Virus record (IMG/VR): IMGVR_UViG_3300032053_000585
Span: 1 to 22,284 of that record
Direction: 5' to 3' (one strand)
DNA length: 22,284 bases
Source of the DNA: a virus
Shown: piece after piece, positions 2,775 through 16,893 of the stretch
Layout: each line of letters begins with the position of its first letter
Numbering within the stretch: the stretch's first letter is position 1
Notes under the pieces: model-generated
Seen by the model: only the letters and a program-made list of their open reading frames with translations
What the model was told of the DNA's origin: nothing
Database searches by the model: none
Made by a program: the position numbers and the translations under genes

Positions 2775-3284
2775 ATGGTTGCCACGCTCACGCCACGGGT
2801 CTACACCGGTTCCAGCGCAGGGACAGAGAGCGCTGCCGTCACGGGCATCGACTGGGTGTCGATCGACAACGCCGTGAACAGCGGTACCAATCGCACGGAC
2901 TACCCGGTCCAGGGCGGCACCGCGAGCTTCGAAAAGCACGTCCGCCTCAAGCTCGACGTCGCCCCGGCCACGGCGGTCACCAACTTCAAGTTCTGGATGA
3001 GCTCGTCCGCCGTCTCGAATATCCTGCTGCGGGCGAAGTTGGCCGTGGGAACGGGGGGTGCCTCACCCGGCACCGGCGACTCCACCCCAACGGCCACCGC
3101 GATGACCGGGGACGCTGACGCCTACAGCTACACGACGGGCGCGAGAGGTGCCTGGGATGTCGCGTCGTACTCCACGATCAACTACGTCACCAAGGCAATC
3201 CTGCTGCAGCTTCAGCCGAACACCAGCGCGACCCCGGGCGCCATGGCCCAGCAGACGATGAACTACGCCTACGACGAGACCTAG
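2775..3284 (+). CDS. Hypothetical virion-associated protein
   Basis: A 169-residue product starting two bases after the micro-ORF stop and ending TAG 3282-3284, which overlaps the next GTG. Composition is Thr, Ala, Ser and Gly rich. The middle holds KHVRLKLDVAPAT and a strand-rich FKFWMSSS region, then a Gly/Pro/Thr linker (about residues 93-115), then a C-terminal segment ending in QQTMNYAYDET, reminiscent of the closing strand of phage beta-sandwich domains. No enzyme motif, signal peptide or membrane span is seen. Position among the small appendage genes suggests a fibre or baseplate part, but I do not recognise the family. Confidence 0.7.
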   Translation: MVATLTPRVYTGSSAGTESAAVTGIDWVSIDNAVNSGTNRTDYPVQGGTASFEKHVRLKLDVAPATAVTNFKFWMSSSAVSNILLRAKLAVGTGGASPGTGDSTPTATAMTGDADAYSYTTGARGAWDVASYSTINYVTKAILLQLQPNTSATPGAMAQQTMNYAYDET

Positions 3285-3691
3285 TGGACGGCCTGCTATT
3301 CGATGCGGTGGCGATGCTGCCGGATGGGTCGGGCGTCCGGGTCGACATGGACGTGCGAGGCTGGACCTCGGTACTTGAGCGGCCCCTCGTGTCCCTGTCG
3401 CTGGTGCCCAAGGACGGCGCTCTGGCGTCGGACGGGACGCCCTTCCAGCCGGTCACGGTTCAGGTCCCGGCGGGTGCGAGCCCGCTGGCATTCAGCCGGG
3501 TGAAGAAGTCGTTCTCGTCGAGCGGCGGGCCGTTGGCAGGGATCCGCATCTACGGCGTGGGATATTCCGTGCGGGATGAGCCCGACGTTATCGTGTGGGT
3601 GCTGCCCGACGGGTCGATCGAGGTCGGTTCCGACACGCTGCTCTCCGACACCATCCTTGACCGACTGTCCAGGGAGGCGCTGTCGGTGTGA
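3284..3691 (+). CDS. Hypothetical appendage protein (paralogue of the 1526-1999 product)
   Basis: A 135-residue product. GTG 3284 overlaps the upstream TAG and is the natural coupled start. VDMDVRGW (residues 20-27) and residues 81-110, running from GGPLAGIRIYG to WVLPDG, align with the protein encoded at 1526-1999, so a gene duplication is likely. The rest is a mixture of short beta-prone segments without catalytic signatures. Its stop at 3689-3691 overlaps the next ATG. A role as a small structural protein of the tail tip or decoration layer is a guess from context. Confidence 0.7.
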   Translation: MDGLLFDAVAMLPDGSGVRVDMDVRGWTSVLERPLVSLSLVPKDGALASDGTPFQPVTVQVPAGASPLAFSRVKKSFSSSGGPLAGIRIYGVGYSVRDEPDVIVWVLPDGSIEVGSDTLLSDTILDRLSREALSV

Positions 3692-3951
3692 TGTCCAAGT
3701 GGCATTGCCGGTACGGGGATTGGTGGATGGTCCAGGTCGTCTGGGACGGCTGGGTCAGCCTCGGCATCCACGTCGACTTCAAGCACCGCACGGACAGCTT
3801 CGGCCACAGCTTCGGCCCTTACGTCGACCTGCACCTTGGCATCGTGATCGTCTCGCTCGGTTGGCACCCGGCATTCAGCACTGACCTCGAGCGGGTCAGC
3901 TCGGTGAGCCGGGGCGGGGCGGCCATCGACGCGACGGGCACGGTTTACTGA
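3691..3951 (+). CDS. Small conserved-looking phage protein, unknown function
   Basis: An 86-residue product. ATG 3691 overlaps the previous stop (TGATG); the GTG at 3688 would add one residue and is less likely. The core reads DGWVSLGIHVDFKHR, then a His/Gly/Pro-Tyr stretch FGPYVDLHLG, then VSLGWHP. This pattern of tryptophans and repeated hydrophobic strands is one I associate with small hypothetical phage proteins, but I cannot assign a family or function. It lacks a signal peptide or convincing membrane helix. The stop at 3949-3951 overlaps the start of the large propeller protein, so the two are translationally coupled and may act together. Confidence 0.65.
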   Translation: MSKWHCRYGDWWMVQVVWDGWVSLGIHVDFKHRTDSFGHSFGPYVDLHLGIVIVSLGWHPAFSTDLERVSSVSRGGAAIDATGTVY

Positions 3952-6900
3952 TGCCGACCATCAGCAAGTTCGCGAACGCCAACGCCGTCGTCACGACCGG
4001 CTGGACGAACCCGACCAACGCCTACGCGGACGACACCTCGTACGCCACGGCCGCCCCGGGCAAGAACCTGACGGTCAACAGCGACTACGGCTTCGCCGAC
4101 TTCACCTCGGCGGAGATCCCGAACGGTGCGGTGATCGCATCGGTCACCATGTCGATCCGGGTCTTCTGTTCGGTCGCCACGGCGAACATGACGCACGGCG
4201 TCCAAGGGATGAAAAGCGGATCGGCCAGCGGATCGGAGGCGACCCAGAACCCATCCGCCGTGGGCGAGGTCACGGTCACCGCTACGCTGTCCGGGATCAC
4301 TCTCGCGGATCTGCGAGCCGCGTCCACCGTTCTGAAGGCCCGGGCGCGCTCCTCGAAGGGCTCCACGAACACCGCCTACACCAGCTCGCTGGACTGGGTG
4401 AATATCACCGTTACGTGGACAACGGTCGAGGGTTCATTCACGGGCGATGCCACGATCCGGCAGACCAAAAGCGGGTCTTTCACAGGCGACGCCACCGTCA
4501 TGCAGGGCACCCGGGTATACGGGAGCTTCTCTGGCGACGCGACGATCGTTCCCTATCCAGCCCAGGTTCGTAACGCGGTAGGATCGAACAATGGTGCTGG
4601 CGCTACGACGCTAACGGCGACCGTCCCAACGGTCGTAGCCGGGGACAATCTGCTTCTCGCAGTGACAGCGCGGGGTGGTGTGGCTGCCACCCCGAACAGA
4701 GGGCCGAAGTACGCCCGCCAGCGGGTGCAGGTCAGCAATGATGCCGCCTTAGTGTATGCGAAGCCAGGCGGTTCAGAGATCTGGGCGATCGAGGAAAACC
4801 GGATCGTCCGCGTCATTTCGACGACGACCAACACGACGATCGCGACTATTCCATGGACCGGGCTCACCGGCGTTGCTGCGTCCATAAGCGGCCCAGGTAA
4901 ACAGATTGGAGTGTTCAAGGCCGACGGTTCGAAGTTCTACCTGACGACGACCGGTGCAAGTGGTGGCGTGGTGTACGAGTTCACCACGTCGAGCTACACA
5001 TTGACCGCCTCGATCGCTGTCGGGAACGGCTCGTCGTACCTTTGCATGAAGCCAGATGAGACTCGTCTGTACGTCCTCAACACGACGGACTCGACCATGT
5101 CGGTGATCAACACCAGCGGCATGACCATCGTGACGACGATCACTGGGTTTGCGGCTTCCTCGACCATGCTGGCGATCTTGGAAGATGGGACGAAGGTCTT
5201 TGTCGCCGGGGCCACTTATGGCGGCGGGGTCGACGTCGTCCTGACCTCGGCCAACACACGCTCGAACATCGCCAAGGCGTCGTATCGCTGGGATGGCATT
5301 GCCGTCAATCACGCCTCTACCCGTGTGTACGTGGGTGGCGGAACCGGCACTGTCGGCGGGGCCATGGTCATCAACGCCACGACCAACGCCGAGGTGACGA
5401 CGGTCACGTACAGCAGTTCTGATCTGTCCGGCGTCGGTGTCTCGCCCGACGACACTTACTGGTTCCTCGGCCTGTACGGCGGTAGCGCGCTCCGGGTCTA
5501 CGCTCAGGCCGCCAACACGCTTGACTACACGATCACCGGTCTGGCCAGCTTCCAGTCCCACTATCAAGCTTGGACACCTGACGGTTCCCGTATGTGGGTT
5601 CTCGATGGGACGAACCTCTACATCGTTGACCCGGCAAGCTGGACGGTAGTCGAGACCATCCCGCGTCATCAGGGGACGGGTGGCTTCTCCACATCCGGCG
5701 CGTTCGTGGCTGACACCACCTACGGCCCGACGGGGTACGTGTGGTGGTGTTCCTACTTCACGTATGGGACAGAGATCAACGCCATCGCCGGGGACCCGTG
5801 GCTTCCCTTGGGCGCCGCTGTAGTGAGTGGCACCGACCTCTCTCAGCGAGTGTTCTGGAAGAAAGCTGGGTCGAGTGAGCCTGCCAGCTACATAGTCAAC
5901 CTCGCGACGTCTCAGGCCGCATCAGCGGTGATGGCCTCAGTGGTGGGCGGTTCCCAGCTGGGAGTCCCCGTCTTGAGCGACGGCCCGACAGGGACCTGGA
6001 TCTCGAACGCACAGGGCACCACGGCCTTCGCTGCTGTGACGTACGTAGATACGTCCGGGTATTGGGTAGCCGTCGGAGCCGGTGGGGCGCTGCGCCACGC
6101 CACTGGCCGACCCACTGGCGCTTGGACGTCCAATCCGCAAGGCTCGAACAACTTCAACGACGTCATGTTCACACCAGGTGGAGGGATTGTTGGCGATTGG
6201 GTCGCGGTAGGCGCCAATAAGACCCTGTACTACAAGCTCTACCCCGACCCCTCTGGTGCTTGGACGGCGTGGAGCCCGCCGGGTGGGGCTGGTGCAACGG
6301 ACCTTCGCAGCGTCGCCTATGGCAATGGGTGGTGGGCAGCAGTTGGCAGCATGGGGCTGGTCTACAACCAAACCCACCCGGACGACGCCTGGACGCTTGA
6401 CGGTGCCTATCCGACCACGGTTGGTAATGGTATCGCCTACGGGTCGGGTAACTGGGTCGGTGTTGGAGACAGCGGCGGCCTGTATTACAAGAATAGCGGC
6501 AACATCTCGACCGGCAGCTGGGTATCGAACGCGCAGGGGTCCACCACGTTCAACGATGTTCTCTGGGCTGCGACGGTAGCGCACCCGAGTGGTATCTGGG
6601 TCGCCGTCGGTGACAGTGGCGTGGTTCGCACGGCAGTCAACCCCAGTGGAGCTTGGACGCTGAACACTCAAGGCACGGATGCCATTCAGTCCGTGTGTTA
6701 CGACAGTGCCAGTGGTCTATGGCTGGCGACCACGGCGGTCGACATCCTGTATGCCGCCGACCCGACCGGAGTGTGGACGGCGCAATCGCAGAGCCTCAAC
6801 GGACTGCGCGATGTCAGGGGCGGTGATGGCTTCGTGGTCGCAGTCGGTGACACCGGAGCCGTCTACTACGCCCCGGACGGTTACTCGACAGACACGATCA

Positions 6901-7280
6901 GCTCGACCCAGTACGGCGGCCAAGCCAACGCCTCATCGGCGAACGTAGTCGCCCCGGCCATCGGGAGCTGGGCCAGCGCCGCCGGTCTCAGCCTGTTCTT
7001 TGGTGGATCAGCGTACAACACGACACCGGCCGCTCCGTCTGGGTATACGGAGAAGGCGTCGTCGTCGGGTGGTACGGGGTCTTCGGGCGACACGACAGAG
7101 GTGGCGGGTAATCACATCGAACCGGCCGTCACGAGCCTCTCAGCCTTGACGGCCGCCTGGTCCAACGCAGCGATCAACATCGGGCATTCGGTGTTCATCA
7201 TCCAGACGATCCAGCCAGAGGCTCCGCCCGCGTCAGGTGAGGCGCCCATGCCCTTCGTCGGCGGGGGATACTACCCGTGA
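3951..7280 (+). CDS. Giant tail/appendage protein with two seven-bladed beta-propellers
   Basis: A 1109-residue virion-like protein. Residues 1-160 form a beta-rich N-terminal domain. Residues 161-200 hold three copies of the 14-residue repeat found in the next gene (GSFTGDATIRQ and relatives). Residues about 262-572 contain seven YVTN-like blades, each with a [DE]-[GE]-[ST]-[KR] turn and a VINT/VxxTI-type strand. Residues about 678-977 contain seven blades with W[VL]AVG-[AD]-[ST/K]-G motifs and GAWT turns, like BNR/Ycf48-type propellers. Segments at about 205-243, 615-670 and 985-1088 look like three pieces of one adhesin-like domain, so both propellers may be inserted in its loops. The most likely role is receptor or glycan binding on the tail. 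No catalytic residues are evident. After roughly codon 165 the third positions become less GC-rich, suggesting mosaic origin. Confidence 0.8.
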   Translation: MPTISKFANANAVVTTGWTNPTNAYADDTSYATAAPGKNLTVNSDYGFADFTSAEIPNGAVIASVTMSIRVFCSVATANMTHGVQGMKSGSASGSEATQNPSAVGEVTVTATLSGITLADLRAASTVLKARARSSKGSTNTAYTSSLDWVNITVTWTTVEGSFTGDATIRQTKSGSFTGDATVMQGTRVYGSFSGDATIVPYPAQVRNAVGSNNGAGATTLTATVPTVVAGDNLLLAVTARGGVAATPNRGPKYARQRVQVSNDAALVYAKPGGSEIWAIEENRIVRVISTTTNTTIATIPWTGLTGVAASISGPGKQIGVFKADGSKFYLTTTGASGGVVYEFTTSSYTLTASIAVGNGSSYLCMKPDETRLYVLNTTDSTMSVINTSGMTIVTTITGFAASSTMLAILEDGTKVFVAGATYGGGVDVVLTSANTRSNIAKASYRWDGIAVNHASTRVYVGGGTGTVGGAMVINATTNAEVTTVTYSSSDLSGVGVSPDDTYWFLGLYGGSALRVYAQAANTLDYTITGLASFQSHYQAWTPDGSRMWVLDGTNLYIVDPASWTVVETIPRHQGTGGFSTSGAFVADTTYGPTGYVWWCSYFTYGTEINAIAGDPWLPLGAAVVSGTDLSQRVFWKKAGSSEPASYIVNLATSQAASAVMASVVGGSQLGVPVLSDGPTGTWISNAQGTTAFAAVTYVDTSGYWVAVGAGGALRHATGRPTGAWTSNPQGSNNFNDVMFTPGGGIVGDWVAVGANKTLYYKLYPDPSGAWTAWSPPGGAGATDLRSVAYGNGWWAAVGSMGLVYNQTHPDDAWTLDGAYPTTVGNGIAYGSGNWVGVGDSGGLYYKNSGNISTGSWVSNAQGSTTFNDVLWAATVAHPSGIWVAVGDSGVVRTAVNPSGAWTLNTQGTDAIQSVCYDSASGLWLATTAVDILYAADPTGVWTAQSQSLNGLRDVRGGDGFVVAVGDTGAVYYAPDGYSTDTISSTQYGGQANASSANVVAPAIGSWASAAGLSLFFGGSAYNTTPAAPSGYTEKASSSGGTGSSGDTTEVAGNHIEPAVTSLSALTAAWSNAAINIGHSVFIIQTIQPEAPPASGEAPMPFVGGGYYP

Positions 7281-7429
7281 TATCTGGCACGTCTAGGTGC
7301 TCCTGACAGGGCTGGTCTCCGTTCCGTTAATGGAAGATACTGTCGTCCAGAGATAGCCACAAACGGCCCAATCCAATGGGCTTAAGCCTCGGGTAGCAAT
7401 CCCATGCAGAACACCCCGGTTGTAACTGA
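7281..7429 (+). promoter_or_regulatory. 149-base intergenic region with palindromes before the giant repeat gene
   Basis: This is the longest geneless gap in the window. It holds an imperfect palindrome TTCCGTTAATGGAA (7322-7335, TTAA centre), a short hairpin GCCCA/TGGGC (7366-7370 with 7377-7381) and a perfect 10-bp palindrome GGCTTAAGCC (7379-7388, TTAA centre). No confident -35/-10 pair or T-tailed terminator is visible. A nine-codon frame, ATG 7404 to TGA 7433, overlaps the next start as ATGA and could couple translation, which matters because the ATG at 7430 lacks a Shine-Dalgarno. It may be a promoter, operator or terminator for the giant gene; which one cannot be decided here. Confidence 0.35.
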
Positions 7430-10400
7430 ATGAGCCTCCTGCTTCTCTTCCACGGAGCAGGAAGTGGCGCCAGCACGCAGACGGGCTCGACGACGCTCGA
7501 CGTCGTCATCAAGCGCACCCAGACGCCGACCTTCCTCGTTGCCGCCGTCTTCCGCACCACCTACTCCCCGACCTTCGTTGTCGCCGCGACGATCAAGCGC
7601 ACCCAGACCGGGACCTTTAGTGCCGGCGCGGTCCTCAAGAAGGCGATCTCGGGGTCGTTCACTGCAAACGCGGCCACGAAGCGCACCCAGACGGGGTCGT
7701 TCACTGCAAACGCGGTCCTGAAGATCACCGGTCTCAACAGCCTCACGGCCGCTGCCACGATCAGGCGGACCCAGACGGGGTCGTTCACTGCAAACGCGGC
7801 CACGAAGCGCACCCAGACGGGGTCGTTCACTGCAAACGCGGCCACGAAGCGCACCCAGACGGGTTCCTTCACGGCGAACGCGGTCCTGAAGATCACCGGT
7901 CTCAACAGCCTCACGGCCGCTGCCACGATCAGGCGCACGCAGGCAGGGTCGCTGACGGCGGACGCGACCCTCAAGTCAACCCGAGCTGGATCGTTCACCG
8001 CGAGCGCCGTGGTGCTGGGCCTCAACCAGCCAGGCTCGTTCACCGCGAACGCCGTCATCAAGCGAACCCAGACGGGCGCCTCCTCAGCGAACGCGGTCAT
8101 CAAGGACCCAGACCAGCCTGGGTCGCTCACGGCCGCTGCATGGGTCAAGGGAACCATCGCGAGCTCCTTCGCGGCGAACACCGTCGTCAAGGCGACCGGT
8201 AGTGGCTCCCTTACTGCCAACGCAACCCTGAAGGCGACTCGCAGCGGTTCCTTCACGGCGAACGCCGTCACCAAGCGCCTCGGCCAGTCGGGTTCCTTCA
8301 CGGCCTCCGCTCTCGTCAAGGCCACGGGGACGGGGACCTTCACGGCTGCGGCCATCGTCAAGGCGCCGATCTCGGGTTCCCTCACGGCCAACGCGGCCAT
8401 CGTGCGTTCGGTCGCCGGCTCCCTGACAGCATCTGCCGTTCTCAAGAAGACCGCCACCAGCTCCTTCGTCGCCGATGCCGCACTGAGGAAGACCGCCGCA
8501 GGCACGTTCACGGTGGGGGCCTGGATCCAGAAGACCAACGCCGGCAGCTTCACGGTGGCGGCGATCACCAAGCGGACCGCCGTTACCCTCGTCACCGCCG
8601 ACGCAGTCATCCGCTGGACGCCGCTGCGGGGCATCACCGCTGACGCGACCCTGAAGGCCACCAGGACGGCCGCAGCGACCGTCGACGCGGCTATCCGACG
8701 TCTGGGTCAGCCGGGGTCGTTCACGGCCTCTGCGTGGCTGCAGAAGACCGTCAGCGGGTCCTTCACCGTCAGCGCTGTTCTGAGGGCGAGCCGAGCCGGG
8801 GCCCTCACCGCCGACGCCGTTACGAAGGCCGTCTTTACCAAGACGACCACCGCAGACGCCATATTCAAGCGGACGAGCACGGGGGCTTTCACAAGCGACG
8901 CGGTCCTGCGCCGGACGCAGGCCGGCTCGTTCACCGCCGCCTCGTGGATCCAGAAGCCGGTTTCGGGCGCCTTCACGGCGTCTGCCGACATCAAGGCCGC
9001 AGTTTCGGGCTCGTTCACGGCCAACGCCCTGATCGGCGGAGCCGGGCATGGCGTCTATGGCATCGACGCCGTCATCAAGGCCACGAGCTCGACGAAGACC
9101 CTCACGGCCGACGCCGTTCTCCAGAGGACCTTCGCGGGCTCGTTCACCGCGAGCGCATGGCTCCAGCGAACCGTGCCGGCATCGTTCACGGCCAACGCCG
9201 TTCTGAAGGCAACGCGCTCCGGCCTCTTCACTGCCGACGCGATCACGAAGCGGACCCAGGTCGGCGCGTTCACCGCCAGCGCGATCACGAAGCGGACTCA
9301 GGCCAGTCTGCTCACCGCCGACGCGGTCCTCCTCCGGGCCAACGCCGGCACGTTCACGACCAACGCATGGCTCCAGAAGACGGTCCCTTCGCCCTTCACC
9401 GCGAACGCCGTCATCAGGGGTGGCGCGGCGTCGTCCTTCACCGCGAACGCCCTGTTCCTTCGGACGGGGTCCTCGATCTTCACGGTCTACGCGATCACCA
9501 AGCGGACCCAGGCGGGGTCGTTCACGGCGAGCGCCGTTCTCCTGCGGACCGCCGCCGGGTCGTTCGCGGTCAACGCGCTGACCCGGAGGGCCCAGACCGG
9601 CGCCTTCACTGCCGACGCCGTCGTCAAGGGGGCTCGCTCCGGCTCCCTCACCGCCGACGCCGTTATCCGCAGGGCCCAGACGGGGTCCTTCACCGCCGAC
9701 GCCGACATCCTGAGGGCGGTCGCAGGTAGCCTCACGGCCAACGCGATCATCAGGCGGGTCGCAACAGGCTCGTTCACCCTCGACGCAGCCGTGAGGCGGA
9801 CGAGCGCGTCGTCCTTCACTGTCGACGCCGTTCTCCGTCGGACCCAGGCGGGGCCGTTCACCGTCGCGGCGTGGATCCAGCTGACCACCGCGAGTTCGTT
9901 CACGGCCAACGCCGCCCTGAAGGCCACGCGGACGGGCTCGTTCACCCTCGACGCCAGCGTTCGAACCGGAACATCCGGGGCGTTCATCGCGTCGGCAATC
10001 CTGAAGTCCTTCCTCGCCGGCGCCTTCACGGCGAACGCGACCCTGGCCCGCAACAGCGGCACGAAGACCTTCACCGCCGACGCTTGGCTGCAGAAGACGG
10101 TCGCGTCCGCCCTGACGGCGAACGCAGTCCTGAGGGCGACGAGGGCCGGCGCGTTCACCGTCGACGCCGTCACGAGGCGGACTCAGGCGGGCTCGTTCAC
10201 CGCCAGCGCCGACATCCGCGCCGCGATCTCCTCCAGCTTCACGGTGGCTGCGGTCATCCGCTCCAGTGCGAGCTCGAGCTTCTCGGCGGCGGCGGTCATC
10301 CGATCCAGCCGGTCGAGCACGTTCACGGCCTCGGCCGTCATCAGGTCGGCGGCCTCCTCGAGCCTCCACGCGGACGCCGTCATCCTCCGTCCGGTCCAGA

Positions 10401-11833
10401 GCTCCTTCAAGTCCGATGCGGTTCTTCGTAAGGCCATCGCGTCCTCCTTCACGGGGGATGCGGTTGTCAGGGCGACCCGGGCTGCGTCGTTCCCGGCGAG
10501 CGCGGTCATCCTCAAGGCCGCTGCTGGTGCCCTGACGGCCAGCGCCATCGTACGGGCTATCGGGATCGGCTCCTTCACGGCGAACGCGGCCCTGAAGGCC
10601 ACGCTGGCATCCAGCTTCACGGCCGGCGCGTGGGTCGCAGGGTCGGGCGTCGGCGCCATCACGGCCGATGCCGTCATCAAGAGGACGGTGTCGGCGGCCC
10701 TGACGGCCGACGCCGTGAAGAAGGCCACGACCGCCGGCAGTTTCACCGCCTCTGCGCTCGTCATGCGGACCGCAGCCGGGGCGTTCGTGTCCGACGCCGT
10801 CCTCGCCAAGACACGGTCCGCCTCGCTCGCGGTGGATGCGGTCGTCAGGCGTACCGCAGTCGGGGGCATCAGTGCGGATGCCACGGTTCGACGGACCTCT
10901 TCGGCCACTCTGACAACCAACGCCATCGTACGGGCTGCGGTCGTCGGTTCGTTCAGCGCGGCTGCGTGGATCATCAACCCGACCGGCCACGTCGGGTCGA
11001 TCACGGCGGACGCCGTGATCTATCGTTCGGCGGCGTTTGGTATAACGGCCAACGCGGTTCTGAAGGTAAGTACAACCCGCTCCCTCACCGCCGGAGCGTG
11101 GGTAGCCGGTTCCGGGGTCGGCGCAATCAGCGCAGACGCTATTGTGCGGCGCACTGCGTCTGGTACGATGCGGGCAGACGCCGTTCTTCGGTCGAGCTCG
11201 GTCAGCTCCTTCACCGCGAACGCTGTCGCGAAGAGAACAGCTCAGGCCGCCCTGGCAGTCACTGCGGTCATCAGGGCCACCCGAACGGGCGGGTTGACCA
11301 CCAACGCTGTTCTCCTGACCCCTGCAACAGGTTCCTTCACCGCCGCCGCCTTCATCGTGATCGGCGGAGCGGCGGGGTCCTTCACCTCCGACGCCACCGT
11401 CCTTGCGGCGCGGACGGGCAACTTCAAGCTCGATGCGATCCGGTCCGCCTCCCTTGCCGGAACGCTGACGGTCGATGCCAATATCCGGGGTTCGACGGCT
11501 GGCGCGTTCACGCTCGATGCCTCCATCGTGGGGCTGTCGAGGGGAACCTTCACCCTCGACGCGCAGATCACCGGCCCTGGATACGGCATCTTCACCATCG
11601 ATGCCTCGATCAGCCAGCGCATCGTGCAGGAGATCGAGGGCACCAACAGCGCGGCCACCTGGGCTGCCAACTGGTCAGCCCGGACGTACGAGGCCACCAA
11701 CAGCGCGGCGACCTACGCCTCGGCTGACTCGGCCGCGACCTACGGCTTCATGTGGTTCTGGACCCGCCGGTCCCTCTTCACCGTGAACGCGGCTCTCTGC
11801 GGCGGCTTCACCCTCAACGCGGAGATCGTATGA
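7430..11833 (+). CDS. Giant tandem-repeat protein, ~98 copies of a 14-residue repeat; putative fibre
   Basis: A 1467-residue product. Residues 1-18 are a short leader (LLLLF then Gly/Ala/Ser), too short and lacking charge for a clear signal peptide. Residues 19-1399 parse as 98 consecutive units with consensus G-S-F-T-A-[DN]-A-V-[IL]-K-[RK]-T-x-[AST]; only eight units carry one or two extra residues, and the lengths sum exactly. Then come an Ala/Asn/Ser linker with three SAAT[WY] copies, an FMWFW patch, and two partial repeats at the C-terminus. Alternating inward residues (F3, A5, A7, [IL]9) suggest one beta-strand and turn per unit, as in a beta-solenoid or fibrous stalk. No cysteine pattern or enzyme motif appears. 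It is flanked by the propeller protein and a baseplate-like gene, so a tail fibre, stalk or surface adhesin is likely. Ser/Thr in every unit could serve as O-glycosylation sites; that is inference. Confidence 0.85.
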   Translation: MSLLLLFHGAGSGASTQTGSTTLDVVIKRTQTPTFLVAAVFRTTYSPTFVVAATIKRTQTGTFSAGAVLKKAISGSFTANAATKRTQTGSFTANAVLKITGLNSLTAAATIRRTQTGSFTANAATKRTQTGSFTANAATKRTQTGSFTANAVLKITGLNSLTAAATIRRTQAGSLTADATLKSTRAGSFTASAVVLGLNQPGSFTANAVIKRTQTGASSANAVIKDPDQPGSLTAAAWVKGTIASSFAANTVVKATGSGSLTANATLKATRSGSFTANAVTKRLGQSGSFTASALVKATGTGTFTAAAIVKAPISGSLTANAAIVRSVAGSLTASAVLKKTATSSFVADAALRKTAAGTFTVGAWIQKTNAGSFTVAAITKRTAVTLVTADAVIRWTPLRGITADATLKATRTAAATVDAAIRRLGQPGSFTASAWLQKTVSGSFTVSAVLRASRAGALTADAVTKAVFTKTTTADAIFKRTSTGAFTSDAVLRRTQAGSFTAASWIQKPVSGAFTASADIKAAVSGSFTANALIGGAGHGVYGIDAVIKATSSTKTLTADAVLQRTFAGSFTASAWLQRTVPASFTANAVLKATRSGLFTADAITKRTQVGAFTASAITKRTQASLLTADAVLLRANAGTFTTNAWLQKTVPSPFTANAVIRGGAASSFTANALFLRTGSSIFTVYAITKRTQAGSFTASAVLLRTAAGSFAVNALTRRAQTGAFTADAVVKGARSGSLTADAVIRRAQTGSFTADADILRAVAGSLTANAIIRRVATGSFTLDAAVRRTSASSFTVDAVLRRTQAGPFTVAAWIQLTTASSFTANAALKATRTGSFTLDASVRTGTSGAFIASAILKSFLAGAFTANATLARNSGTKTFTADAWLQKTVASALTANAVLRATRAGAFTVDAVTRRTQAGSFTASADIRAAISSSFTVAAVIRSSASSSFSAAAVIRSSRSSTFTASAVIRSAASSSLHADAVILRPVQSSFKSDAVLRKAIASSFTGDAVVRATRAASFPASAVILKAAAGALTASAIVRAIGIGSFTANAALKATLASSFTAGAWVAGSGVGAITADAVIKRTVSAALTADAVKKATTAGSFTASALVMRTAAGAFVSDAVLAKTRSASLAVDAVVRRTAVGGISADATVRRTSSATLTTNAIVRAAVVGSFSAAAWIINPTGHVGSITADAVIYRSAAFGITANAVLKVSTTRSLTAGAWVAGSGVGAISADAIVRRTASGTMRADAVLRSSSVSSFTANAVAKRTAQAALAVTAVIRATRTGGLTTNAVLLTPATGSFTAAAFIVIGGAAGSFTSDATVLAARTGNFKLDAIRSASLAGTLTVDANIRGSTAGAFTLDASIVGLSRGTFTLDAQITGPGYGIFTIDASISQRIVQEIEGTNSAATWAANWSARTYEATNSAATYASADSAATYGFMWFWTRRSLFTVNAALCGGFTLNAEIV
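7484..11626 (+). repeat. Coding tandem repeat array, 42-bp unit (~98 copies)
   Basis: The DNA repeat has a 42-bp period that is a multiple of three, so frame is preserved. Most units have diverged at the DNA level while keeping the protein consensus, which points to an old array under selection for the protein. The 5' part (7651-7935) is much more uniform. Units with an A-W-[LI]-Q-[KR] centre recur every five units for part of the array (starts near 8501, 8714, 8924, 9137, 9347 and again 9851, 10064), a superimposed period of about 210 bp. Confidence 0.9.
7651..7935 (+). repeat. Recent in-frame duplication inside the repeat array (168-bp offset)
   Basis: The 117 bases at 7651-7767 recur at 7819-7935, shifted by 168 bases, exactly four 42-bp units. 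The copies differ only in a short stretch around the GSFTANA codons (TCGTTCACTGCAAAC versus TCCTTCACGGCGAAC). This near identity contrasts with the strong divergence elsewhere in the array and shows that units are still gained by unequal recombination or slippage. Confidence 0.85.
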
Positions 11834-12150
11834 GTTTGACCTTCGTCCAGGGCGACACCGCCCCGGACATCACCGCGATCATCCACGAAGAAGACGACCC
11901 CACGTCGATCATCGACCTCAGTCTGGCGTCCGGGGTCCGCTTCCAGATGCGGAAGGCGGAGGACCACCGCTACACCGTCAACGCCGCCGCCACGATCCTC
12001 GACGCACCGGCGGGCAAGGTGAGCTACTCGTGGGGCCCCAACGACCTGTCGGTCACGGGGACCTTCAACGTGCAGTGGGAAGTCACCTACGCGGGCGGTC
12101 GCGTGCAGACCACGAGCCCCGAGGTCCAGGTCACGGTTCGTCGGCAGTAG
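11830..12150 (+). CDS. BppU-like baseplate upper protein N-terminal domain
   Basis: A 106-residue product; the ATG at 11830 overlaps the stop of the giant gene (ATGA), and the longer upstream frame lies inside that gene. It opens with FVQGDTAPDI, continues with IIDLSLASGVRFQMRK, then a strand pair ending GKVSYSWGPNDLSVTGTF, and closes with WEVTYAGGR and TSPEVQVTV. This series matches the N-terminal domain of phage baseplate upper proteins (BppU_N family) seen in many siphophages, where it anchors receptor-binding parts to the baseplate. The whole protein is just this domain. It may connect the giant fibre or the propeller protein to the tail. Family assignment is by recognition of the pattern. 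Confidence 0.7.
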   Translation: MSLTFVQGDTAPDITAIIHEEDDPTSIIDLSLASGVRFQMRKAEDHRYTVNAAATILDAPAGKVSYSWGPNDLSVTGTFNVQWEVTYAGGRVQTTSPEVQVTVRRQ

Positions 12151-12153
12151 GAC

Positions 12154-12759
12154 CTAGAGGACGCGCCGCCAGCTCAGGCGGCGGACGATCCGGCTTACCA
12201 TCGCTGCGGTCAGGTCGAAGGATCGACTGATCGAGGCATACGACTCACCGCCTTCGGCACGACGGCGGATATCGAGAACGATCTCGGAGTTCAGTTTCCA
12301 GCCAGCACCGCCGGAATGACGGTATTCCCCGAAGCCGCCGCGTTGACGACCCTTGGCAACCATGTCGAGGGCGTTGACGGATTGGCTACCGACCATCAAG
12401 TGGTCGGGGTTCACGCAGGGCGGGTTGTCGCAACGGTGAAGGACATTCATCCCCGTCGGGATCTGGCCTCGGTAGAAGTCCCAAGCCAGACGGTGGGCCA
12501 TCTCGATCCTTCCGGGGTTACCAGTCCTCAACTGGCCGTAGCCATGGGTGTTGGTAGCTCCAGTCCACAGCCAGCAATCACCACTCTTATCGACTCGCTC
12601 CTCCCAGCGATCTCGCTTGGGCCGGACGAGATGAGGAGGTTCTCGATACGCATGGATCACCTTGTCGGGATCACCAGTTCGCTTCCACCTCGTGTAGTGC
12701 TTCTGGCACCAGCCGCGACAGATGGCCTTGGTGGGACAGTCGCTGATCGCGCACTTCAT
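12154..12759 (-). CDS. Free-standing HNH endonuclease (HNH_3-type) with C-terminal helix-turn-helix
   Basis: A 201-residue protein on the strand opposite all neighbours. Residues 3-21 have a zinc-ribbon-like C-x4-C-x5-C-x3-C-x2-H pattern. About 62-90 carry CWLWTGATNTHGYGQLR and AHRLAW, the signature of the HNH_3 group, and about 108-120 hold HRCDNPPCVNPDHL, with the His/Asn/His metal-site residues. Residues 156-195 look like a helix-turn-helix (SYASISRSFDLTAAMVSR). Such proteins cut DNA at specific sites and spread as homing elements between phage genes. The frame is open to an ATG at 12789, but I prefer 12759 because it gives the usual N-terminus and sits 7 bases after a TACAAT box, consistent with a leaderless transcript. 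It separates the baseplate gene from a glycosyltransferase. Confidence 0.85.
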   Translation of the reverse strand: MKCAISDCPTKAICRGWCQKHYTRWKRTGDPDKVIHAYREPPHLVRPKRDRWEERVDKSGDCWLWTGATNTHGYGQLRTGNPGRIEMAHRLAWDFYRGQIPTGMNVLHRCDNPPCVNPDHLMVGSQSVNALDMVAKGRQRGGFGEYRHSGGAGWKLNSEIVLDIRRRAEGGESYASISRSFDLTAAMVSRIVRRLSWRRVL

Positions 12760-12766
12760 GCAAGAG

Positions 12767-12772
12767 ATTGTA
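12767..12772 (-). promoter_or_regulatory. Candidate -10 box for the HNH gene (leaderless start)
   Basis: On the minus strand TACAAT is followed by seven bases and then the ATG at 12759, placing the expected transcription start on the A of the start codon. Actinobacterial hosts commonly use TAnnnT -10 boxes and leaderless mRNAs. No good -35 is seen about 17 bases upstream, and no Shine-Dalgarno precedes either candidate start. The sequence is visible; promoter activity is inferred. Confidence 0.4.
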
Positions 12773-12791
12773 CCACTCACGGTAACCATCG

Positions 12792-14066
12792 ATGAGTCGC
12801 GTACTATGGTTTTCAGATGCCGGCGCCACGACGGGCTTTGCCCGCGTCACGCACAGCATCGGCGAACGTCTGGTCGAAGACTTCGGCCACGACATCCACG
12901 TCTTGGCGACGAACTTCCGGGGGGACTCCTGGCCGTGCGAGCGCCCCGGGCACTCCCACGTCACGCCACTCCGCCTGTACCGCCCGGACACCATCGTGGC
13001 CGGCGACATCTACGGCCGGGCGCGGATCATCGAGATGCTTGCCAAGGTCGAGCCCGACGTGGTGGTCTTCCTCCAGGACCCCCAGGTCGTCCTCAACACA
13101 CTGTTCGCCAACATGAAGGACCCAGATCGGATCCTGCTCCAGTACCGACCGATGCTGGCATACGTCCCGAGCGACGGGACCAACCTCCCTCCAACATGGA
13201 CGACGGTCCTGCCCAAGGTCACCAACGTGGTCGCGATGAGCGAGTGGGGGCAGGGTCAGTATCAGCCCAGCAACCTCGTCTACCACGGCATCGACGCCGA
13301 GGTCTTCTGGCCCATCAGCGAGAAGCCGAAGACCACCAGCACCGGCATCGTGTGCAAGACGAAGAACGACTGCAAGCGGGCCTTCGGGCTCGACCCCGAC
13401 AAGTTCCTCGTGGGCCGCGTGGACACCAACAGCGGACGCAAGGATTACCCGGCGCTGATCAAGGCCCTCTGGCCGCTGATGGAGAAGTACTCCGACATCG
13501 AGGCCTGGTTCCACTGCGAGGACGAGGCGGCCAACGTCGGCGTCCGCATGCAGGACATGCTCCTGCGGAACGTAGCCAACGTGAAGCCGGATCGGTTCCA
13601 CTTCCCGGGCCTGCACACCAGCTTCGAGGGCTGGTCGGTCGAGGACATGAACGTCCTCTACTCCGCCTTCGACGTGTTCGTTTCAACGAGCCGGGGCGAG
13701 GGCTTCGGGCTCACGCTGGCAGAGGCCGCTGCGGCGGGCTGCCCGATCATCGCGCAGAACGTGTCCGCCATCCCTGAGGTGGTCGGACCCGGCGGGATCC
13801 TGGTGGAGCCCTCGGGCTACATGGTCACGCCGCCATCGGGCCAGGACAACTGGCTCCCCGACATCGCGGCCTTCACGGAAGCCATCGAGCGGATGTACCA
13901 CTCGAGGGGCCTTCGGAGAGATCTAGGCGAAGCGGCCGTCAAGCACGTCCGCGAGAAGTTCTCCTGGGACACCGCCGCCCAGCTATTCGATGAGTACATC
14001 ACGGCCCTCGAGCACTTCGAGCCAGCCGTGTCGAGTACTGAAGCATCGCCGGAGGCCGCCCCGTGA
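12792..14066 (+). CDS. Glycosyltransferase family 4 (GT-B fold)
   Basis: A 424-residue soluble protein. It starts with a Rossmann-type strand and glycine turn (VLWFSDAGATTGFARVT) typical of GT-B enzymes. The C-terminal half holds FVSTSRGEGFGLTLAEAAAAG with the E-x7-E pair Glu303 and Glu311, the donor-binding signature of GT4, followed by CPIIA and VSAIPEV. A conserved-looking NSGRKDYP (around 214-221) marks the inter-domain region where GT4 proteins often have G-R/K residues for the phosphate. It would transfer an activated sugar in the cytoplasm. It overlaps the protease gene by ATGA-type coupling at 14063-14066, so it is co-translated with the head genes. Acceptor unknown; a virion protein is the likely target given the context. 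Confidence 0.85.
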   Translation: MSRVLWFSDAGATTGFARVTHSIGERLVEDFGHDIHVLATNFRGDSWPCERPGHSHVTPLRLYRPDTIVAGDIYGRARIIEMLAKVEPDVVVFLQDPQVVLNTLFANMKDPDRILLQYRPMLAYVPSDGTNLPPTWTTVLPKVTNVVAMSEWGQGQYQPSNLVYHGIDAEVFWPISEKPKTTSTGIVCKTKNDCKRAFGLDPDKFLVGRVDTNSGRKDYPALIKALWPLMEKYSDIEAWFHCEDEAANVGVRMQDMLLRNVANVKPDRFHFPGLHTSFEGWSVEDMNVLYSAFDVFVSTSRGEGFGLTLAEAAAAGCPIIAQNVSAIPEVVGPGGILVEPSGYMVTPPSGQDNWLPDIAAFTEAIERMYHSRGLRRDLGEAAVKHVREKFSWDTAAQLFDEYITALEHFEPAVSSTEASPEAAP

Positions 14067-15517
14067 ATACGTTCAAGATCTTCGTCCCGCTACTCAAGGC
14101 ATCACGTTCCGACGACGGGAAGCTGCGCTTCCATGGCATCGCCAGCTCGTCCGTCAAGGACCGCCATGGGGATGTGATCACAAGGACGGCGCTCTCCGAG
14201 ATGGAGCGCAGCGCCTCCGAGAACATGACCATCTTCCTCAACCACGAGTACAAGGTCCCCGAGGACGTGGCCGGGTCGGTCGAGCGCGCCTTCCTGCGCT
14301 CCCACCCCACGGACCCCGACATCCAGGACCTGTCGTTCGACATCGTGGTCAACCAGAGCAACCCCCGCGCCGTCAGCGCGTGGGAGGCCATCGACAACGG
14401 CACCAAGCTCGGCCTGTCCATCGGCGCCCGCATCCCAGACGGCGGAGCGACCCGGGACAAGCAGAGCGGCCGCTACGTCATCGACCACATCGACCTGCTC
14501 GAGACCTCCATCGTCGGCGTGCCGGCGAACCCCAGGAGCTGGGTCGAGTACGCCGTGAAGAGCCTCAACGTCTCGTGGGCCGACGAGGGCCTCGAGAAGA
14601 CCGGCGACGTGGTCGTCCGCTCCGATGGCGAGGTCGGCATCGTGGTCGAGGAGCCCGAGGACGTGGAGGATCTTGTCGCGGCGGTGGCCGTCGAGGCGGG
14701 AACGGGCGAGATCATGGAGGGCCTCGAGGTCCTCGAGGGCCAGACGGCGGAGCTCGTCGTTCACGAAGACGGCACGAGCGAGGCCTACATCGTGGAGGGC
14801 GTCGATGGCGAAGACGTGGAGCTGGCGAAGGCGAAGAAGCCAGCTGGACACACCCATCCCCACGCCCACGAGCACGACCATGCCCACGAGCACTGGAACG
14901 GCATCGTCCATAGCCACGAGCACAACCACACCCACGCCCACGAACACGATGACGGCCACGAGCACATCGATGACCGCCAGGGATCCGAGCACGATCACTC
15001 CCACATGAACGCCTATGGCGAGGACCACGCCCACGACGAGGATGGCGCCCGCAAGGACGACCAGCCGACCGTCGACGACCTCGCGGAGCACCTGGAGGCC
15101 TTCGAGGCCTCCCTCAACCCCACCCCCGATGACGGCGACGGTGCCGTATCGGCCCCGCAGGAAGCTCCCACGAGCGGCCCTGAGAACGGGGACGACTCCG
15201 CAGATACGACGACGGAGCTGGACCTCCAGCCAACCTTCGCCGCGTCGATGCGAGCCACCAACGAGATCCTCAAGTCGCTCACCCGCGAGCTGATCGACGC
15301 GAAGACCTCCCTGGCAATCGCTGAGCAGGAGCGTGACCAGGCCATGGAGCTGGCCCAGAAGGCCATCGGCGACACGGCCTCCCTGTTGGAACGCCTGTCT
15401 GCGACCCCCCTTGGGCGCAAGACGGTCGTGACCGAAGCGGCCTCGAACCTCGAGAGCCTCAAGTCGGTCTACGGCGAGGCGTTCATGGACCTCTTGAAGA
15501 AGGACAACACCAGATGA
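14063..15517 (+). CDS. Prohead protease fused to His-rich linker and scaffold-like domain
   Basis: A 484-residue protein. Residues 1-165 resemble HK97-type prohead (U35/S78) serine proteases: FHGIASSSVKDRHGDV near the start, IFLNHEY with the candidate catalytic His61, GLSIGA, and LLETSIVGVPANP with the candidate Ser149. Residues 165-260 are acidic, Val/Glu rich. Residues 262-324 contain 22 histidines in 63 residues, mostly alternating H-x-H. Residues about 345-484 are acidic then helical, with a heptad-like coiled coil (about 410-440), as in scaffold domains. The protease is expected to mature the procapsid and remove scaffold. Fusion of protease and scaffold is known in other phages, but the His-rich stretch is unusual and may bind metal. 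It overlaps the capsid gene by four bases. Confidence 0.8.
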   Translation: MNTFKIFVPLLKASRSDDGKLRFHGIASSSVKDRHGDVITRTALSEMERSASENMTIFLNHEYKVPEDVAGSVERAFLRSHPTDPDIQDLSFDIVVNQSNPRAVSAWEAIDNGTKLGLSIGARIPDGGATRDKQSGRYVIDHIDLLETSIVGVPANPRSWVEYAVKSLNVSWADEGLEKTGDVVVRSDGEVGIVVEEPEDVEDLVAAVAVEAGTGEIMEGLEVLEGQTAELVVHEDGTSEAYIVEGVDGEDVELAKAKKPAGHTHPHAHEHDHAHEHWNGIVHSHEHNHTHAHEHDDGHEHIDDRQGSEHDHSHMNAYGEDHAHDEDGARKDDQPTVDDLAEHLEAFEASLNPTPDDGDGAVSAPQEAPTSGPENGDDSADTTTELDLQPTFAASMRATNEILKSLTRELIDAKTSLAIAEQERDQAMELAQKAIGDTASLLERLSATPLGRKTVVTEAASNLESLKSVYGEAFMDLLKKDNTR

Positions 15518-16893
15518 CCATGACCAACGAGGAGTTGGCCGATCTGCTCAAGAGCAACAACGAAGCTCTCGAGGCCATCGGTTCCACACTCCAGAAGATG
15601 AACGCGACGCCCAACGTCGCCGTTCCCGCGCCGGCGACGGCGCAGGGGATCAGCGACCAGGCGACCCCGACGCAGGAGATGCGTCGGTTCATCACCCCCG
15701 ACGAGCGGCTCGCTCTGTCGGACACCCTGCGGACGAGGAGCGACAGCCAGCTTGGCGCGCTGTTCACCCAGCAGGCCCGCGCCCAGAGCATGGGCATCCC
15801 GCTCGACCTGTGGCTCAACACCGCCGGCTTCGCGGCCCAGAACGCCTTCGATGGCATCCGTGGGCAGCTCCAGCCGGAGGTCGCGAAGGCCCTCGACAGC
15901 GTCGGCGCCACGGCCCTGATCCGTCAGGACCTCGAGCCGATCCTGTACGAGATCTTCATCCGGATCTTCCCGGCCTACGAGCGGTTCCGCAAGGAGCCCG
16001 CCAACGGCCTCGTCCACGCGTGGAACCAGATCACGGCCTACGGCGATGCCAAGTTCATGGCGGAGCTCGGCACGGTCAGTGACGACACCTCGACCTACCA
16101 GCGCCAGACGACCAACGTCGCCATCCTGGCGACCCGGCGCGGCATCTCGCTCAAGTCGCAGTTCGCTGTGATGGCCGGCGGGATGAACTACAACCCGGAG
16201 CAGATCGAGCTCCAGGGTGGCCTGCGGTCCATCGCGCACCGCATGCAGACCACGATCTTCGAAGGCAACGCCGCCGACTCCGGTGGCACGGCCGACAACA
16301 ACCTCGGTGTGTACGACGCGAACGCCTTCACCGGCCTTCGCCAGCTCCTCGAGACCGGCAGCGCATGGGCCGTCGACCCGTCGGGGTACAACACCACGAC
16401 CGGCTACGCCCAGGGCTTCCGCGCAGGCCTCGACTCGGCGGTTCTGCCGATCATCCAGGCCGGCGGACGTCCGTCGGTTGTCTGGTCCCACCCCTCGGAG
16501 AAGATCACCTTCAACGAGCAGCAGGACATCAACTTCCGCATCCTCGCCGGCCAGAACCAGGAGACCCTGGGTGTCGGCGTCGTGGCGGATCGGATCAACA
16601 CCGTCGCCGGCCCCGTGCCGTGGGCGGTCGTTCCCGGCGACAGCATCAGCTCCTACCACCGCACCGGCAGCACGGTCAACACCGTCGCCAACGGTTCCAA
16701 GGTCCGGGACATCTATGTCCTGGATGAGGAGAGCATCACGCTCCCCTACCTCGGGTCCCCCGGGCCCACGGTCCTCGAGATCCCCATCGGCATCAGCGGC
16801 CAGCTGACGCACCTCTACATCGTGTTCCTGATGAACGGGCTCGCGGTGAAGGTCCTGCCGTGGAACAACAAGATCATGGTGAAGATCGCCTGA
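15514..16893 (+). CDS. Major capsid protein (HK97-like)
   Basis: A 459-residue protein directly downstream of the protease, with ATGA overlap at 15514 and an AGAAGGA Shine-Dalgarno near 15498. Residues 1-40 are a helical, Asn/Glu-rich arm that could be a processed delta-like segment; residues 48-110 form further helical sequence. The body is alpha/beta with ILYEIFIRIFPAYERF, LATRRGISLKS, and a C-terminal strand set ending VLPWNNKIMVKIA, consistent with the HK97 fold in position, size and pattern. It would form the head shell. A strong hairpin follows, as is common after capsid genes, whose product is needed in large amounts. Family call rests mainly on synteny and pattern. Confidence 0.8.
   Translation: MTMTNEELADLLKSNNEALEAIGSTLQKMNATPNVAVPAPATAQGISDQATPTQEMRRFITPDERLALSDTLRTRSDSQLGALFTQQARAQSMGIPLDLWLNTAGFAAQNAFDGIRGQLQPEVAKALDSVGATALIRQDLEPILYEIFIRIFPAYERFRKEPANGLVHAWNQITAYGDAKFMAELGTVSDDTSTYQRQTTNVAILATRRGISLKSQFAVMAGGMNYNPEQIELQGGLRSIAHRMQTTIFEGNAADSGGTADNNLGVYDANAFTGLRQLLETGSAWAVDPSGYNTTTGYAQGFRAGLDSAVLPIIQAGGRPSVVWSHPSEKITFNEQQDINFRILAGQNQETLGVGVVADRINTVAGPVPWAVVPGDSISSYHRTGSTVNTVANGSKVRDIYVLDEESITLPYLGSPGPTVLEIPIGISGQLTHLYIVFLMNGLAVKVLPWNNKIMVKIA

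Follow-up and report, generated by a model that had tools for sequence, protein, structure and literature searches.

Which cell is infected is decided by the phage fibres, and very stable protein rods can be obtained from their shafts. Phage fibres are mostly trimeric, and the triple beta-spiral, in which short repeats form a viral attachment shaft (adenovirus, reovirus sigma1), is also a trimer, with repeats of about 15 residues and a Gly/Pro turn that is conserved. Bacterial surfaces often bear long repeat adhesins. In the BppU and FibU-FibL anchors of TP901-1 and 80alpha, an N-terminal BppU_N-like domain has a genetic link to a fibre-like protein. The BppU N-terminal domains form a ring in the baseplate of TP901-1, and neck passage structures (NPS) comprise elongated proteins that are proposed to be attached by a similar ring and that end in carbohydrate-binding modules (PMC10747895).

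In this study, a window comprising the whole of a 22,284-base record of a bacterial virus, known solely from environmental DNA, was analyzed, focusing on a gene for a 1467-aa protein built mainly from a 14-residue repeat. This protein is probably the shaft of a tailed-phage virion fibre, a thin beta-rich rod, perhaps of solenoid type, with C-terminal, BppU_N-linked anchoring and with adhesive domains that it carries or acts together with. Such a role is of a known kind, and the repeat family itself is undescribed in the libraries searched. The array and the NPS of the lactococcal siphophage TP901-1 have in common elongated (here putative) virion proteins and a proposed BppU_N-like ring. However, the NPS anchor domain is N-terminal, whereas here it is encoded by a separate overlapping gene or lies after the array, and no 14-residue array is mentioned for NPS (PMC10747895). 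What the present loci offer on a neck location and a carbohydrate-binding end domain is the gene order and one weak ConA-lectin-like match (PF13385). The BppU and FibU-FibL anchors share with the locus the genetic tie to a fibre-like protein, but here the domain of about 106 aa stands alone, the presumed shaft is the array, and the polarity is reversed. Triple beta-spirals resemble the array in their short repeats, whereas the unit here is 14 (10-18) residues long with one hydrophobic cluster, and no sequence match between them was found; as regards triple beta-spiral traits, the array has 14-residue units, Gly at position 1 in 63% of units, and Pro as only 1.2% of residues. The tandem GGxGxDxUx nonapeptide of RTX calcium-binding beta-rolls is absent from the unit consensus GSFTADAVIxRTxx. 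A simple, interchangeable and insertion-tolerant repeat would be an added building principle for phage adhesion devices and a modular nanorod for protein design, and it would give annotators a handle on long 'hypothetical' genes of environmental viruses.

Gene order of the window and the 14-residue array

The features of the window were as follows:

654-1529, + strand: family 2 glycosyltransferase (GT2), upstream of the putative fibre genes (PF00535, E 8.5e-9)
3951-7280, + strand: upstream virion-type gene, 1109 aa, with an N-terminal domain, three units and beta-propeller-like regions
4431-4562, + strand: three unit copies inside the 1109-aa gene (residues 161-204)
7430-11833, + strand: repeat gene (candidate fibre), 1467 aa, with ATG start and a TGA stop that overlaps the next start
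7484-11626, + strand: 98 consecutive 14-residue units (residues 19-1399; identity 0.361 at lag 14, shuffles at most 0.143)
11627-11812, + strand: C-terminal tail, 48 non-repeat residues that include short sub-repeats, followed by a last unit
11830-12150, + strand: BppU_N-like protein, 106 aa (PF10651, E 6.7e-5, 23.1 bits, equal to the Pfam curated cut-off)
12154-12789, - strand: HNH homing-type endonuclease (PF13392, E 1.2e-12)
12792-14066, + strand: Group 1/GT4-type glycosyltransferase (PF13692, E 5.7e-16; phrog_2170)
14063-15517, + strand: prohead protease, S78 (PF04586, E 1.2e-7)
15514-16893, + strand: major capsid protein (phrog_752, E 8.6e-12)

Further + strand genes encode a tail-completion protein (PF11367), proteins with weaker head-tail matches, a tail tube protein and three small proteins without a credible match, and the last ORF is assigned to the tape measure by its position alone. 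The HNH gene, on the other strand, lies midway through the virion operon, with the BppU_N-like and GT4 genes on either side. In the 1109-aa protein the three units stand between the N-terminal domain and the beta-propeller-like regions, and the C-terminal part is 42% identical to a domain found between repeat blocks in one of the relatives described below (L027).

The first-pass annotation had divided residues 19-1399 of the 1467-aa protein into 98 units with nine extra residues. The same result was obtained from an independent, iterative position-specific parse, the extra residues being P201, P230, S287, P428, T555, T878, HV1187-1188 and A1315, and one further, isolated unit was located by it at residues 1448-1461, past the 48-residue non-repeat stretch. 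The self-identity of the array was 0.361, 0.337 and 0.296 at lags of 14, 28 and 42, respectively, and the highest value among 200 shuffles at lags 1-60 was 0.143; the 98-unit periodicity is thus far above chance. The window consensus of the unit is G S F T A D/N A V I/L K/R R T x A/T, with Ala7 in 96% of units, and positions 3, 5, 7 and 9, earlier described as mostly hydrophobic, were indeed found to be occupied by F/L, A/V, A and I/L/V, respectively, position 8 often being hydrophobic too.

The array uses every one of the four possible codons for the near-invariant Ala at position 7, for Thr at position 4 and for Gly at position 1, which argues that the repeat is held at the protein level and is not merely a recent DNA duplication. 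A crude pN/pS of 0.28 was obtained among similar unit pairs, a value biased low because the pairs were picked for protein similarity. At 7650-7998 the DNA itself is repeated in tandem, in copies of 42, 84 and 168 bp, which suggests that the array has grown by duplication. A C-terminal stretch of 130 residues is 52% identical to the C-terminus of the repeat protein of another contig, L019 (E 6e-36). Two long reverse-strand ORFs lie opposite the array (8084-10990, - strand, 968 aa; 7561-8661, - strand, 366 aa); they are probably by-products of the 42-bp period and the high G+C.

The first-pass annotation had named no family with the unit consensus, allowing that one may exist; none was found in Pfam, PHROGs or NCBIfam or in a profile search of the PDB. 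The best Pfam score for the unit was 16.2 bits against a curated cut-off of 26.9, 40 array segments gave only scattered, weak and unrelated PHROGs families with no consistent match, no NCBIfam model matched the array, and the best PDB match had an E of 0.24, which is not credible. Matches by phmmer to antibody heavy chains (E 0.05-0.65) were taken as composition effects and excluded. Three different tblastn queries found no match in 50,697 phage genomes, a result that holds for that collection and sensitivity; two of the three find 47 loci of the local set when scored at the same database size, and a match for the neighbouring protein was obtained with the same tool. The repeat was not found described in the literature, where sequence strings are poorly searchable, and the searches for Rfam matches and promoter-like sites returned none.

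The repeat family and its neighbourhood in other viral contigs

A back-translated peptide search with the whole array against viral contigs found nothing, its automatic patterns having fallen on unconserved stretches, and therefore a degenerate DNA pattern covering two adjacent FTA(D/N)A cores was used instead. Its matches were 41 stretches in 33 additional contigs of uncultivated viruses and 8 stretches in genome contigs; of these 8, only one (L043) holds a convincing array without being an IMG/VR contig as well. L044-L046 hold short or different repeats, and for L048-L050 no array was obtained. The different tandem repeat of L045 and L046, both Bacteroidales MAG contigs, is FTADAFERxHxPFE, which matches the DNA pattern. 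L047, filed under a Diapherotrites archaeon MAG, shares its size (39,772) and its 315-aa repeat ORF with the IMG/VR contig of L040 and is thus probably a virus binned with that MAG.

The repeat profile matched all 33 records, as expected for records chosen by the pattern. A total of 1,397 distinct units gave the family consensus [GK][ST]FTADA[VIY][ILV]xxTxx, with frequencies of 0.91 for Ala7, 0.79 for Ala5 and 0.74 for Asp6 (Asn 0.17). Unit spacing across the family is mostly 14, often 15 and rarely 16-18 or 10. About 20 units have just 10 residues, and in L004, L035 and L041 such units recur (such as ADAVIMPVFRADAV), with a Pro turn replacing the usual loop. Variable positions showed no lag-2 preference among 1,198 neighbouring pairs, i.e., no odd-even alternation, and irregular joints between units showed no preference for even spacing; the alternating two-unit period expected if odd and even units differ, as in a simple antiparallel meander, was accordingly rejected. 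Many relatives carry other domains at the N-terminus or between repeat blocks, mostly of about 150-300 residues, one of which is weakly ConA-lectin-like (PF13385, E 5.9e-5, below cut-off). In L004, L005, L022, L032, L035, L037, L040 and L054 the array is followed at the C-terminus by repeats of about 7-11 residues (for example LDVELRKPS and ISADIDADT), which are perhaps the junction to the virion. Judged by its sequence, the repeat forms a genuine family, and none of the libraries searched describes it.

A BppU_N match over the cut-off was present in 15 of the 33 contigs. Among the 18 records that have both (window included), 13 have the BppU_N-like gene downstream of the array, on the same strand and at a distance of at most 1 kb, and in most of these the S78 protease gene then follows at about 1.7-3 kb; in the remaining records the BppU_N-like gene lies 2-5 kb upstream of the repeat gene (four contigs) or just over 1 kb downstream (one contig). 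In the window its start codon overlaps the stop codon of the repeat gene (ATGA at 11830-11833), and in L041 a single open frame, possibly with an internal start, spans the array and a BppU_N domain that is 59% identical to the BppU_N-like protein of the window. Nine contigs have a portal gene 6.7-11.4 kb upstream of the array on the same strand, with GT2 genes between. In three contigs the repeat gene adjoins other proteins, namely minor tail/hub proteins (L012 and L039) or a Tail Collar protein and a GH25 endolysin (L024); by their gene neighbours, these three are tail-fibre slots, the usual place of tail fibre genes.

Predicted structure and alternative readings

Two segments of the window array were folded with AlphaFold2. 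The model of residues 556-751 reached a pLDDT of 72.2 (other models 40-57) and a pTM of 0.53, and that of residues 879-1046, folded from an ungapped 40-row alignment (A4), a pLDDT of 59.2 and a pTM of 0.54; alignments A2 and A3 had register-shift gaps and were dropped in favour of A4. With VIA-align, the best alignment of the first model was to 3p4g (MpAFP; Z 14.7, rmsd 2.9, 179 aligned) and that of the second to SufB/SufD (Z 13.1, rmsd 3.1, 166 of 168 residues aligned; next group Z 6.2), right-handed beta-solenoids with one unit per coil thus being nearest to both models, which are of limited confidence. MpAFP region II and the SufB/SufD core are without sequence similarity to the repeat, and their functions are unrelated. 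Left-handed solenoids (GlmU, LpxA, LpxD) aligned at an rmsd of about 9-12 angstrom and were not used, and no Foldseek match of the models had an E below 0.05, every match being at 0.057 or above.

The first-pass annotation had considered one strand plus turn per unit plausible, and possibly one unit per solenoid coil, and had proposed folding consecutive units as a check. Single-copy prediction did return solenoid-like best alignments for both segments, but at moderate to low confidence and with the Foldseek values given above. The units are beta-rich and regular, as supposed, yet DSSP assigned three short strands per unit in the first model and one 8-9 residue strand in the second, so that the secondary structure is unlike between them. 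Taken together, the models favour, without proving, one unit per coil of a right-handed beta-solenoid. With 98 units at 4.8 angstrom the rod would be about 47 nm long, and the same length would follow if each unit were one strand of a cross-beta stack. The roughly 20 units of 10 residues fit a constant-coil solenoid poorly.

The same role could be filled by another fold, namely a trimeric or otherwise intertwined fibre (e.g., a triple-stranded beta-helix) with one strand per unit per chain, the single-chain solenoid then being an artefact of folding one copy. We regard this as less likely since both models, made from different segments, align best to single-chain right-handed solenoids, even though trimers are usual among phage fibres, the second model has a single strand per unit, and a unit spacing of 10-18 residues with whole-domain inserts is tolerated by strand-plus-loop designs. 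A single-chain solenoid, if true, would be a departure from the usual trimeric fibre. As a more specific proposal, to which we give somewhat less than an even chance, the array may represent a phage-specific 14-residue beta-solenoid repeat forming expandable single-chain rods of about 50 nm or more, with a C-terminal BppU_N-type ring anchor and exchangeable domains between coils, possibly glycosylated by the phage, and so far found only in uncultivated phages.

Where on the virion such a fibre would be attached is a separate question. Main-group repeat genes lie between the portal and prohead protease genes, and NPS have been proposed for TP901-1 with a ring like that of the BppU N-terminal domains, so that the array may decorate the head or neck, as a whisker or a neck-passage type of structure, and not be a receptor-binding fibre of the tail tip. 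This reading has somewhat less than an even chance; the tail-fibre slots of L012, L024 and L039 speak against it. It is also conceivable that the protein is not a virion component but a surface adhesin of the infected cell, secreted or acquired by lysogenic conversion, since long repeat adhesins are frequent on bacteria and some of the PDB solenoids aligned to the models are secreted adhesins. This appears quite improbable, because the gene lies within the head-tail operon on the same strand and overlaps the BppU_N-like gene, the neighbourhood is conserved and includes a tail-fibre slot in other contigs, and no signal peptide is apparent by eye in the N-terminus MSLLLLFHGAGSGASTQT.

The proposed shaft and possible flanking modification genes

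On the virion fibre-shaft reading, the extra globular domains of the relatives and the place among virion genes indicate that the repeat protein is probably the stiff shaft of a fibre that touches the host. Each 14-residue unit would add one step of strand and turn, probably one right-handed beta-solenoid coil, and the stacked units would form a thin, stiff rod. The units seem interchangeable, so that the rod could lengthen by duplication and take in globular domains between units. We infer that the BppU_N-like protein of the overlapping gene fixes, or helps to fix, the C-terminal end of the shaft to the virion, and that other, probably adhesive, domains are carried by the relatives at the N-terminal end or along the shaft. 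In the phage of the window, the probable adhesive domains would be encoded mainly by the preceding gene, which itself has three units. Standing against the shaft reading are the four contigs with the BppU_N gene upstream and the one with it just over 1 kb downstream, the 10-residue units, the array-then-anchor order, the moderate to low confidence and differing secondary structure of the two models together with their Foldseek values, and the fact that few receptor-binding domains were recognised.

Sugars may be added to the Ser/Thr-rich shaft, or to other parts of the virion, by the glycosyltransferases encoded on either side. In L051, the genes from portal to array (2792-9784) include two nucleotide-sugar epimerase matches, three glycosyltransferases and an endolysin-like protein and are possibly a virion glycosylation cassette. 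A sulfotransferase-like protein lies near the repeat gene in L016 (3694-5133, - strand; PF13469, E 8.7e-6, just below cut-off) and is possibly another sugar- or protein-modifying enzyme.
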